A stretch of 53,700 nt of DNA, from positions 1 to 53,700 of the forward strand of contig JAUWZD010000017.1 in the NCBI GenBank assembly GCA_030615505.1, written 5' to 3'. The notes below the pieces were generated by a model, which was not told the origin of the DNA, did not search any database, and worked only from the letters and a program-made list of their open reading frames with translations. Position numbers and translations under genes: made by a program. This stretch comes from Spirochaetales bacterium. Its GTDB lineage: Bacteria; Spirochaetota; Spirochaetia; SZUA-6; DRHE01. This document shows positions 26,626 through 33,182 of the stretch, one piece after another; position 1 is the stretch's first letter, and each line of letters opens with the position of its first letter.

Positions 26626-28515
26626 TCATACAGACTCACCCAATAAACTATTCGGATCCTTCCGCGGTGGAAATCCCAGCAGCTTTCTAACATCACTGTC
26701 GTCTAATGTTTCTTTTTCCACCAGGGTTTTTGCTAAAAGGACGAGCTTTTCCTTATTTCGGGTAAGTATTTCTTTAGCTTTTTTAAGACAGTATTCAACA
26801 ATATCTTTCACTTCCCTGTCTATTTGTTTTGCCGTTTCTTCGGAGTAATCCTTGTGCCGGGCAATCTCTTTACCCAGAAATATCGGTTCTTCCTTTTTAC
26901 CGTATGCTATGGGTCCCAATTCCCGGCTCATACCCCATTCACAGATCATTTTTCTGGCTATGTCGGTTACCTGTTCAATATCGTTCTGCGCCCCTGTGGT
27001 GCTTTCATTAAAAATGATATCTTCGGCTGCATATCCCCCCATACTGATTGTAATTCTGTCTCTCAGCCATCCTTCACTCCGTGAATATGAGTCTGTTTCT
27101 GGTAGTGAAAAGGCAAAACCCAATGCCTGCCCGTGAGGTACGACGGTCACCTTATGCAGAGGATCGGCATTTTTCAGGTAATAGTGCAGAAGCGCATGGC
27201 CGGCTTCGTGATATGCGGTCATTTCTCTTACCTTGGGAGGAATGATCTTTGACTTCCGCGCAATTCCCATCATGGCTTTATCCCTGGCGTCCTCGAAATC
27301 CTGCATATCCACCTTATTGTTATTTCTCCTGGCAGCATAGAGGGCAGCCTCATTTACCATATTGGCCAGATCCGCTCCGGATGATCCGGGTGTAGCCCGG
27401 GCTATCCTGTTAAGATCCACATTACCGGCCAGTGGAATCGATTTACTGTGAAGCTGCAGGATCTTCTGCCTCTCGTTGCTGTCAGGCATATCCACTACAA
27501 CCTGCCGGTCAAACCTTCCAGGTCTTAAAAGTGCCGGATCGAGGACATCGGGCCTGTTGGTTGCAGCAATGATAATTACACCGTCCTTGGTATCAAAGCC
27601 ATCCATCTCCACCAGCATCTGATTCAGGGTCTGCTCACGCTCATCATGTCCGCCGCCGTACCCTGCTCCACGTGTCCTGCCAACTGCATCCAGCTCATCG
27701 ATGAACAGAATACAGGGAGCATTCTTCCGCCCCTGCTCAAAGAGATCCCTTACCCTACTGGCCCCTACGCCCACAAACATCTCCACAAAATCAGAACCGG
27801 ACAGATGAAAAAAAGCAACACTTGCTTCTCCGGCAATGGCCTTGGCCATAAGGGTTTTTCCCGTACCCGGCATGCCGACGAGCAGCACGCCTTTGGGAAT
27901 TTTTGCCCCGATTTTGATAAACTTTTCCGGGCTTTGTAAGAATTCAACCACTTCCTGCAGCTCATACTTGGCCTCTTCCTGTCCGGCCACATCTGCAAAA
28001 GTAATTTTCTTTCCAGTGTCGAGATACTGTTTAGCCCGGCTTTTACCGAAACTGAAAGCCCTGTTACCGCTGCCCTGCACCTGTCGAAACATGAACCAGA
28101 TAAAGAAGAATCCCAGGATCCAGGGAAGAAATTCTATAAAGATCCTGATAGGGGTCACGGTCTTTGCCCCTCCGGTTACGCGCACTGCTTTTTGGGTAAG
28201 CCTCTCTATTAATTGAGGATCCTGGTATGGTATATTGGTTTTAAAAAAGACAAGATCACCGGCCTGACCGCGCAGGGTTCCCTGGATTTCAGATTGATCC
28301 ACGATTTTAACGGAATCAATCAAGCCCTGATCCAGATAATTCAGAAAAACAGAGTAAGGGATCTGCTGGCTGACATTACGGTCACTATAAAGGAAGAAAA
28401 ATATAAAAAAGAAAGCCAGAACCAAAAGAGAGATCAGGGCAACCCTGTTATTGAAGTTGAATTTGGAAAACCCGGGTTCCGGCCCTTTTTTGTTTGGCTT
28501 TTTATTATTATTCAC
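26626..28515 (-). CDS. ftsH: ATP-dependent zinc metalloprotease FtsH
   Basis: 629 residues starting at GTG (28515), whose TGA-containing overlap (GTGA) closes an ORF that runs through the repeat array. Two membrane helices (about 25-43 and 128-143) flank the periplasmic domain. Walker A GMPGTGKT is at 214-221, Walker B FIDELD at 271-276, SRH near RPGRFDRQ, and the zinc site HEAGH at 436-440. This hexameric membrane protease degrades unassembled membrane proteins and short-lived regulators. A G-run just upstream of GTG serves as the ribosome-binding site. Confidence 0.97.
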
Positions 28516-28528
28516 GATTCCCCCCCAT

Positions 28529-28722
28529 ACGCCTTGGTCCGGCTTCCGAGCCGGGCCCCATACGCCTTGGTCCGGCTTCTTAGTCCAGCGCAGCCTACGC
28601 CTGCGATGGGTTTCTTAGTCCAGCGCAGCCTACGCCTTGGTCCGGCTTCCGAGCCGGGCCCCCCATACGCCTGCGATGGGTTTCTTAGCCGGATGCTTTG
28701 ATCCAGCTTCTTAGCTGGATAG
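28529..28722. repeat. Array of five modular palindromic units between tilS and ftsH
   Basis: Units starting ACGCCT begin at 28529, 28562, 28597, 28632 and 28666, a 33-35 base spacing. Each has a conserved core (CTTCCGAG, CTTCTTAG or TTTCTTAG) flanked by arms drawn from a small set: GTCCGGC, CGATGGG and ATCCAGC to the left, and GCCGGGC, GTCCAGCGC and GCTGGAT to the right. Some combinations are perfect hairpins (CCGGCT-TCCG-AGCCGG; ATCCAGCT-TCTT-AGCTGGAT at 28701-28720) and others are mixed arms. The last hairpin contains the tilS stop codon. On the minus strand the array is open from ATG 28730 to the GTGA of ftsH (72 codons), overlapping both genes. Confidence 0.85.
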
Positions 28723-30165
28723 TTTTTCAATGCCGATTGTCATCTTACATATGTCTTTTTGTGATAGCCTGGGTCTGAATCTATTGGGATATCCGTAAGG
28801 TTCTCCCAGCACTGCCACAATTCCTTGTTTGTCAGTAATAATCGGCATCTTCCACCTCTTAAGTATCGGCACTCTCCATTCGGTAAATAGTTTCTTGACG
28901 GCTTTTAAGCCCCCCCTGATCCTTATCCGATCACCTGATTTCCAGGATCGCACCACAATCGGATCACCGGCTGCCTCAATGTCTATCGCAACAGCTTTGT
29001 TTGTCGCTAGATCCGGCGCCAGCCGGGCTCCCAAGGCCGGCGTCAGCCGGGCACTTTGCACAGGACTAACTGCTTCGTAAAATTTAAAACGCAATCCTGC
29101 GTTCGGTACAATATAATGTCGGTTCGTTCTAACGACTATAAGATAACCTTTTTTGGACTTACAGACAATATCCCTTTCAATAAAAAGATATTCCCTCTTC
29201 CGGTATAAGCGCACCCCGTATCCGGAGAGAATAATCCGTCTTTTCCGGATATATTCATCATCTAAAAGGCAGGACAGGTACCTGTATGGAACTCTCCCTA
29301 CCCCCTTATTCAGCATGTTTATCAGTTGATAAAGAGAAAATATTCTGATTATACCCGGAGCAGCTATAAAATTTTCAGATTTTATCCTGAATCCATGATA
29401 ACTCTCCGCCCAATTAAGGTTTAAATTTGCTTCTTTAGCAAAATATTCATTTATAAGGGTCATTTTTTCAGCCAGGGAGGTTAAACTCCCCCGAAATCCT
29501 GAAAACATGCTCTCCACAACAGGGATGAGCTTGAGCCGCACGGCATTTCGCAGGTAATCGGGATGAAGATTGGTCGAATCCGTAATATAGGAACGATTAC
29601 GGTCATGTAAAAATTTAAGTATCTCCTGACGTGAGCAGTAAATCAGCGGACGAATAATCCTTCCTCTCCGGGGCGGGATCCCGGAAAGCCCCGCAGCAGC
29701 ACCCTGAAAGAATCTCATAATAAGGGTTTCTATATTGTCGTCATTCGTATGTCCCACTGCAATAAAATCACATCCTAACTCCTCGGCACATTCCTTGAAA
29801 TACTTATACCGCTCTTCCCGAGCTAAGTCTTCCAGGCTTCTAACGGTAGAAATGGACATATTCTTTAAATACCCGGGAGTTATGCACTTGACCTTGAGTT
29901 CTACCTTGATTAAAGAACATACTTTTTTAACAAAAGCAGCTTCTTCTTCTATTTCCTTTCTGGATCGTATCCCGTGGTTCAGATAGGCACAATAAAGGGT
30001 TAGAGGAAAACTTTTTCTTAAATCAGCAAGTATTTGAAGAAGTGCTGTGGAATCCGGTCCGCCTGAAAAGCCCACAAGGATACTGGAATGTGCAGGTATC
30101 CCATATTCCCGAAAATAGTTAAGGACTTTTTCAATTGTTTCCGTATTACTTTTTATTGATGACAT
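28711..30165 (-). CDS. tilS: tRNA(Ile)-lysidine synthase
   Basis: Makes lysidine at C34 of tRNA-Ile(CAU) using ATP and lysine. 484 residues. The PP-loop is SGGPDSTALLQ near residue 29, followed by ARLNH-like CAYLNHGIRS, GHTNDDNIETLIMRFFQGA and a C-terminal domain with VRSWKSGDRIRIRGG. Residues near 380-400 contain an 8-residue tandem (ARLTPALG/ARLAPDLA) encoded by a palindromic repeat pair, which looks like an in-frame insertion. The stop codon also falls in a repeat hairpin. The start overlaps the end of pth by 20 bases. Confidence 0.93.
   Translation of the reverse strand: MSSIKSNTETIEKVLNYFREYGIPAHSSILVGFSGGPDSTALLQILADLRKSFPLTLYCAYLNHGIRSRKEIEEEAAFVKKVCSLIKVELKVKCITPGYLKNMSISTVRSLEDLAREERYKYFKECAEELGCDFIAVGHTNDDNIETLIMRFFQGAAAGLSGIPPRRGRIIRPLIYCSRQEILKFLHDRNRSYITDSTNLHPDYLRNAVRLKLIPVVESMFSGFRGSLTSLAEKMTLINEYFAKEANLNLNWAESYHGFRIKSENFIAAPGIIRIFSLYQLINMLNKGVGRVPYRYLSCLLDDEYIRKRRIILSGYGVRLYRKREYLFIERDIVCKSKKGYLIVVRTNRHYIVPNAGLRFKFYEAVSPVQSARLTPALGARLAPDLATNKAVAIDIEAAGDPIVVRSWKSGDRIRIRGGLKAVKKLFTEWRVPILKRWKMPIITDKQGIVAVLGEPYGYPNRFRPRLSQKDICKMTIGIEKLSS
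29010..29052. repeat. Palindromic repeat pair inside the tilS coding sequence
   Basis: CCGGC-GCCA-GCCGG (29013-29026) and CCGGC-GTCA-GCCGG (29037-29050) recur with a 24-base period, exactly 8 codons. The arms match the CCGGC/GCCGGGC arms of the array at 28529-28722. They encode a repeated ARL-x-P-x-L motif within TilS. Confidence 0.7.
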
Positions 30166-31348: not shown

Positions 31349-31369
31349 TAAAAACTCCTTCTGCTTGTC

Positions 31370-31403
31370 TTTTTAGTCCAGCACAACCAAAGGCTGGGAT
31401 GGG
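31370..31403. repeat. Single diverged copy of the palindromic repeat family
   Basis: TTTTTAGTCCAGCACAACC followed by AAAGGCTGGGATGGG matches units of the array at 28529-28722 (core TTTCTTAGTCCAGCGCAGCC and the GCGATGGG arm), with several substitutions. It lies between tRNA-Gln and rplY, about 2.7 kb from the array. Confidence 0.6.
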
Positions 31404-31421
31404 CTATTATTCATAAATTAT

Positions 31422-32867: not shown

Positions 32868-33182
32868 ATGACATCTAATTCCAACAAGACGGGTGAGTAT
32901 ATCGATGGGCTAAATTCATACTGGCAGTGTAGTGACGATCACGACGATGAAGATCTCTATGACGATGATTTTGAAGATGATTTCGATGATTTTGAAGATG
33001 ATTTCGATGAAGATCTGGATGAGGACGATTTCGATGAAGATCTGGATGAAGATCTAGATGAAGATTTTGAAGATGAGGAAGAAGAAGACTATGAGGATGA
33101 GGAATTCGATGAAGACTTCATCGAAGATGATAAGGACTACGACATCGATGACGAACTCGATTATGATGATTTTGATGAATAG
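32868..33182 (+). CDS. Extremely acidic protein of 104 residues, unknown function
   Basis: Start ATG with GAGGAGG 5 bases upstream and a promoter-like TTGACA further up, so it looks expressed. 62 of 104 residues are Asp or Glu. After a neutral N-terminus of about 22 residues (MTSNSNKTGEYIDGLNSYWQ) the chain shows a four-residue rhythm, with Phe or Leu every fourth position between acidic triplets (DFEDDFDDF, DEDLDEDLDEDF). The DNA is correspondingly repetitive (GATGAAGATCTGGATGA variants). It might bind ribosomal proteins, RNA polymerase (compare the acidic tail of the delta subunit), Ca2+ or DNA-binding proteins as a DNA mimic; none can be chosen. Its last 22 bases overlap convergent rsfS. 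Confidence 0.75.
   Translation: MTSNSNKTGEYIDGLNSYWQCSDDHDDEDLYDDDFEDDFDDFEDDFDEDLDEDDFDEDLDEDLDEDFEDEEEEDYEDEEFDEDFIEDDKDYDIDDELDYDDFDE

Follow-up and report, generated by a model that had tools for sequence, protein, structure and literature searches.

A modular palindromic repeat array between tilS and ftsH in a Spirochaetales bacterium, with related hairpins found mostly in IS91-family remnants

What defines a REP family is its tag, GTAG or CGTC; RAYTs go with the GTAG type, and variable stems and loops, arrays, insertions into genes and insertions within palindromes all have precedents among them (PMC3733652). Rickettsia palindromic elements (RPE) insert into coding regions (PMC10969869), and the GC clusters of yeast mitochondria fuse and are reshuffled, with one segment staying constant (PMC4478555). 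The origin and diversification of REP-like palindromes is an open question. The family described here occurs in empty, half-filled and filled forms within one genome (48, 81 and 107 bp, plus 5-bp flanks), and the array at which our analysis started appears to be an example of such an element splitting a widely conserved operon gene pair.

The window, i.e., the whole stretch of 53,700 nucleotides that was analysed (contig JAUWZD010000017.1 of assembly GCA_030615505.1), contains this array, the parts of which are as follows.

28520–28722: modular palindromic repeat array, apparently inserted at the tilS/ftsH junction (repeat searches; junction of relatives without the array)
28536–28557: hairpin X1-TTCCGA-Y1, containing the 18-nt core GTCCGGCTTCCGAGCCGG common to other loci
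28569–28593: hybrid unit X1-TTCTTA-Y2 with unmatched arms (folding, −3.3 kcal/mol)
28583–28611: hairpin Y2-CCTACGC-X2, spanning two units (folding, −10.9 kcal/mol)
28601–28628: hairpin X2-TTCTTA-Y2 (folding, −10.3 kcal/mol)
28639–28660: second copy of the X1-TTCCGA-Y1 hairpin (repeat search, folding, covariance model)
28671–28695: hybrid unit X2-TTCTTA-Yt (folding, −3.3 kcal/mol)
28688–28720: end unit GCCGGATG..ATCCAGCTTCTTAGCTGGAT, resembling the tRNA-cluster locus C9, with 26 of 29 nt identical (BLAST)

Direct reading and a repeat search resolved positions 28528–28697 into five tandem units with steps of 33, 35, 35, and 35 bp, and a perfect hairpin at 28701–28720 closes the array after them. 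Each unit has a TTCTTAG or TTCCGAG core, and the arms come in two left and two right versions. TRF returned a period of 35 with a score of 122, and BLAST of the array against itself gave E values down to 1e-12, in agreement with the five 33–35-bp units sharing a core that had been noted in a preliminary description of this DNA. The arms follow one another in the order X1 Y1 X1 Y2 X2 Y2 X1 Y1 X2 Yt Xt Yt2, and every second spacer is a TTC(CG/TT)A loop, the others being rich in C, for instance CCATACGCCTT or CCTACGC. Matched arm pairs fold strongly (X1-Y1 at −16.4 kcal/mol, twice, and Y1-X1 at −13.9 kcal/mol), as does the final hairpin (−11.3 kcal/mol), while the mismatched neighbours are X1-Y2, Y2-X1, Y1-X2, and X2-Yt. 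Because pairwise folding is strong for matched arms and weak for hybrids, the earlier wording of perfect hairpins mixed with recombined halves is accurate. On either strand, the array is more stable than shuffled sequences (z of −2.0 for the operon strand and −2.7 for the other), and its GC content is 63.5% against 44–45% in the surroundings. Neither of the integron attC core motifs, GTTRRRY and RYYYAAC, is present in the array sequence.

The genes and signals at the junction are listed below.

26626–28515, minus strand: ftsH (AAA protease)
28512–28515, minus strand: GTGA at the start of ftsH, a relic of the stop/start overlap that relatives retain
28711–28713, minus strand: TAA stop codon of tilS, supplied by the array hairpin that is transcribed first
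28711–30165, minus strand: tilS (tRNA-Ile lysidine synthetase)

In 21 of the 25 relatives measured, the closest of which have a TilS 45–49% identical to the one studied here, the gap between tilS and ftsH is about −26 to +34 nt, often with a GTGA overlap (e.g., AGAGTGAACGGCGAC and GGAAAGGTGAACAATAATAATAA); the other four gaps (127–169 nt) are extrapolations, as FtsH was aligned only in part, and may be due to longer N-termini of this protein. Among named genomes, a scan with the TilS protein returned no relatives. The gap here is 195 nt: GTGAATAATAATAA is retained at the ftsH start, and the TAA of tilS lies 195 nt upstream, inside the hairpin CTATCCAGCTAAGAAGCTGGAT. Since the two genes overlap or nearly touch in most relatives, while the GTGA is kept here and tilS stops 195 nt earlier, the array is best read, from these sequence comparisons, as an insertion into the 3' end of tilS. 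Such an insertion would have supplied tilS with a new stop codon and left a transcribed hairpin array between the genes, which together probably uncouple the translation of ftsH from that of tilS. Neither this interruption nor the IS91 location of most other copies (see below) had featured in the preliminary description. On the minus strand, an open frame (28512–28730) spans the whole array and ends at a TGA overlapping the GTG start of ftsH; it is possibly a relic of the former end of tilS. Elsewhere in the window, a 104-codon open frame on the plus strand (32868–33182) consists almost wholly of Asp/Glu/Phe-rich repeats.

Within this genome of 4.4 Mb, the core hairpin family occupies about a dozen loci. 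When the array was compared with its own genome by BLAST, the matches elsewhere were mainly to its core hairpin; this hairpin, TTCTTAGTCCGGCTTCCGAGCCGGA, was matched nine times in the genome and in none of the 25 further genomes of its order that were searched, and 392 further genomes of the phylum lack the double hairpin. A covariance model found 18 strong hairpins on nine contigs (C119, C157, C70, C117, C12, C15, C9, C95, and C37), and an additional hairpin at C13:21543 (23.6 bits) contains the motif CATGCTTCTTAGTCC, its CATGGATG centre being empty. The latter region (C13:21543–21612, L127) forms a large hairpin with CATGCTTCTTAGTCC at its edge, closely upstream of a gene start. Another 345 kb of stretches of the same genome, a non-random sample, contained no core hairpin. 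Among named genomes, the single exact match was in the Planctomycetota MAG VRUG01000047 (L095), the genome of which has a second copy (L108), while 391 other Planctomycetota genomes had no copy. Scans of up to 400 genomes per phylum, in the phylum of our genome and in Planctomycetota, found none beyond our genome (G000) and G435, and the viral, phage, and plasmid collections gave no match. The genome-wide search proposed in the preliminary description thus turned up other copies in the genome, and relatives lack the array at the junction; the outcomes named there as speaking against a mobile element were a lack of further copies and copies fixed at the same place in relatives.

Two further segments of the window had been assigned to the family at that stage.

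29010–29057, minus strand: about 16 extra codons inserted in frame in tilS, comprising two hairpins of the CCGGC-NNNN-GCCGG type (CCGGC..GCCGGGC) that are nearly identical
31366–31406, plus strand: claimed diverged copy, between rplY and tRNA-Gln; scored only while in the training set

The first, described as a coding copy at 29010–29052, is a real in-frame insert, and its approximately 16 residues are unique to this TilS in comparison with 28 relatives; it has no TTCNNA core and no match in 572 kb of selected stretches of this genome and related loci, and it is a candidate member of the family. The second (31370–31403) was found neither by a model built without it nor by BLAST against the same 572 kb, and we no longer count it as a copy.

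Within the family, arm covariation (GACAT/ATGTC, GCGCAT/ATGCGC, and GTGCAT/ATGCAC) gave 14 cells with two-sided changes, where shuffling gave 7.4; none of the 500 shuffles reached this figure, which kinship of the copies can inflate. The link between the array and the units borne by IS91 rests on the exact 18-nt core and shorter matches (17 nt at C95 and 26 of 29 nt at C9), and a covariance model built without the window copies gave just 17.7 bits on two array hairpins. Locus C9, a tRNA cluster in which an exact 26-nt module lies beside the segment matching the end of the array, is the best bridge between the two.

Twelve of the 18 strong hairpins lie in IS91 remnants (14 when two with IS91-like flanks are added), mostly within decayed transposase genes whose intact relatives match Y2_Tnp and the IS91 model; our literature search gave no relevant report of such repeats together with IS91 in spirochaetes. 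The copies occupy three recurring sites, which are, in order, LEGG|FDE, QYI|ARPP, and YI|RRYG, and which recur also in the Planctomycetota MAG. At YI|RRYG, the C70 copy reads AGACG-[107 bp]-AGACG and a C119 copy CGACG-[81 bp]-CGACG, and at QYI|ARPP the Planctomycetota copy L095 reads TACAT-[107 bp]-TACAT; the 5-bp direct repeats are imperfect in C117 and C119:6997 and are not clear-cut at the first site. The element is 95.5% identical between C70 and C117, against 74–75% for the flanks, and 96.2% identical between L095 and C119, against 82–85% for the surroundings. The nearest intact IS91 copies to C70 and C119 are C102 (84%, downstream) and C134 (87%), respectively, and the site is empty in both, which indicates that it was hit more than once or that the element was passed by conversion. 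At least two IS91 copies, including C102 and C134 (L138 and L139), have an intact frame of about 450–460 amino acids. Other short inserts are present in the IS91 pseudogenes (C70, C119, C12, C117, and L095), e.g., PFS|H(W/*)RGSTT|CKGF and palindromes resembling CCCCCTAAAGGGG, which suggests that several small palindrome families may reside in these remnants.

Taken together, the junction insertion, the dispersed copies, the 5-bp repeats on either side, and the stronger conservation of the element relative to its flanks lend good support to the small mobile palindromic element first proposed for this locus, and we think it likely that small, non-autonomous mobile elements of palindromic type have multiplied locally and been reshuffled to form the array. 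The explanation that competes best with this, though we judge it unlikely, is that the hairpins are passengers of IS91, spread by copying by its Y2 transposase or by gene conversion, and that the array is a largely unrelated tandem repeat with a short GC-rich core. Most strong matches do lie in IS91 remnants, IS91 fragments and copies are numerous in the genome (33 matches), and the same three sites recur even in the Planctomycetota MAG; with 12 of the 18 strong hairpins so placed, part of the spread may be due to IS91 copying or gene conversion. But the element is far more conserved than the IS91 flanks and is bordered by 5-bp repeats, members exist outside IS91 at C9, C95:435–515, and C13, and C9 links an exact 26-nt unit to the end segment of the array. 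Two further loci were first read as insertions into other genes, C15:37229 into a 2-oxoacid oxidoreductase gene and C119:8634 into an ankyrin gene; because their flanks (e.g., CCCAGTATATC..TACATTGCCCGCCC) resemble the second IS91 site, they are possibly tiny IS91 remnants, and both were left out of the count of independent non-IS91 insertions. A 120-bp stretch that is 95% identical between C15:37270–37390 and C70:8977–9096 adjoins the hairpin in C15 and lies downstream of IS91 in C70.

The copies also differ in their internal organization. The element at C95:18335 has 48 bp (CACATGGATGTG..CGGCGGAGACATGGATGTCGAGAGCCG) and two palindromes with centres CATG|GATG, both empty. In C70 and C117, each of these centres is occupied precisely, one by the 26-nt module CTTCTTAGTCCGGCTTCCGAGCCGGA and the other by a module of 33 nt (48 + 26 + 33 = 107), in C119:15178 one centre is filled and one empty, and C12 and C157 have longer modules containing further hairpins. 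The empty centres may represent either the ancestral or an excised form. No direct repeat flanks the module at the module junctions, which counts against simple slippage. In C119:6997 the left arm of one hairpin is joined to the right arm of the other with a single module between them, and C119:15447 stands in the same relation to L095; judged from their sequences, both look like deletion products between adjacent hairpins at the shared core, and the hybrid units of the window array would be explained by the same deletion between neighbours. We find the hairpin-end exchange proposed earlier to have no specific evidence in its favour, deletion or slippage at the core together with nesting at the centres being simpler. 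In the mechanism that we envisage, an enzyme acting in trans would insert the elements with duplication of 5 bp of target, hairpin modules would enter or leave at palindrome centres, perhaps once these are extruded as hairpins, and recombination or replication slippage at the common TTCNNAG core would give rise to arm swaps and tandem arrays. A bolder version, that these are selfish bacterial palindromes growing by precise module insertion at the extruded tips with a dedicated enzyme and crossing phyla within IS91 remnants, strikes us as rather improbable. No transposase could be assigned to the family, and the element does not carry inverted repeats at its ends, which read (A)GGTCGGC..CATG(CG).

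We regard as quite doubtful the possibility that these repeats are of the REP/BIME type and owe their mobility to a RAYT, a tyrosine transposase that acts on single strands and cuts at a tetranucleotide beside the hairpin. A conserved unpaired tag, CTTCTTAG, which ends in TTAG, does stand directly 5' of the hairpin like the GTAG of REPs, and REPs are themselves described as having modular stems and loops, forming dimers and arrays, and inserting inside palindromes (PMC3733652), but the tag is TTAG, ATAG, or CGAG rather than GTAG or CGTC, and the copy number is low. The RAYT-type transposase for which a search had been recommended was not found in this genome, which is about 93% complete; its sole Y1_Tnp gene is of the IS200 type (132.6 bits against a cut-off of 55, and 32.3 against 80 for the RAYT model) and has different end hairpins. 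To our knowledge, 5-bp direct repeats are not expected from RAYT chemistry, which also counts against this explanation. The IS200-type tnpA (L028, C49:4307–7666) has its own flanking hairpins (CCACCGGCTATGCCGGTGG), with TTAG 5' of the left one.

An origin of the array in place, by tandem duplication, as a regulatory RNA or a terminator serving the tilS-ftsH operon seems very improbable to us, for although the array is flanked by two genes of the same orientation, is somewhat more stable than shuffled sequence on the operon strand, and extends to the ftsH ribosome-binding region, neither a promoter nor an operon-strand terminator was seen in it, no Rfam family scored above threshold in the region (best Qrr, E of 0.54, 19.8 bits against 50), the relatives examined lack it at the junction, and the presence of the same core at unrelated, dispersed loci disfavours this as its sole origin; a regulatory function may possibly have been acquired later.

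As a group of small mobile palindromes, the family can be compared with four known systems. It shares with REP/BIME sequences palindromes of 20–40 bp with alternative stems and loops and a one-sided unpaired tag, dimers and arrays, and members in genes, some of them inside other palindromes (PMC3733652). It differs in its TTAG, in its few copies, in that no RAYT was found, in its 5-bp flanking repeats, and in a two-level nesting exactly at palindrome centres. With regard to the GTAG superfamily, the variable 20–40-bp palindromes, dimers, and arrays are all present, while the tag is CTTCTTAG, TTCATAG, or TTCCGAG instead of a terminal GTAG, and the lone IS200-type Y1_Tnp is not flanked by the repeats. 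The features of the CGTC superfamily (CGTC tag, stem of 8–9 bp starting with AT pairs, and CCA-like tail) are absent; CGTC letters at one end of some IS91 copies are part of the 5-bp flanking repeat, and stem and tail do not fit. As the tag that defines REPs is lacking and their transposase was not found, we place the family among palindromic repeats as a new variant. RPEs are likewise palindromic elements, of about 100–150 bp, in coding sequence, sometimes in frame (PMC10969869), and palindromic inserts in coding regions are found here in the IS91 pseudogenes and at the 3' end of tilS; the present family has another sequence, fewer copies, and mostly IS91 pseudogenes as hosts. These hosts are decayed, and an in-frame insertion into a live gene is just suggested by the TilS insert, a candidate member. 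The GC clusters also consist of GC-rich palindromic modules with a constant segment and variable partners, mobile without a gene of their own (PMC4478555), but they are mitochondrial, have AG/ACT direct repeats, and occur in many copies, whereas this family is bacterial with 5-bp repeats. With bacterial MITEs it shares being a small non-autonomous element with target-site repeats (PMC10969869), the 5-bp repeats at the second and third IS91 sites being imperfect in some copies; terminal inverted repeats shared with a resident transposase were not found among the IS compared. In its behaviour, then, the family resembles the REP, RPE, MITE, and GC-cluster palindromes, and it looks like a new variant among small palindromic mobile repeats.
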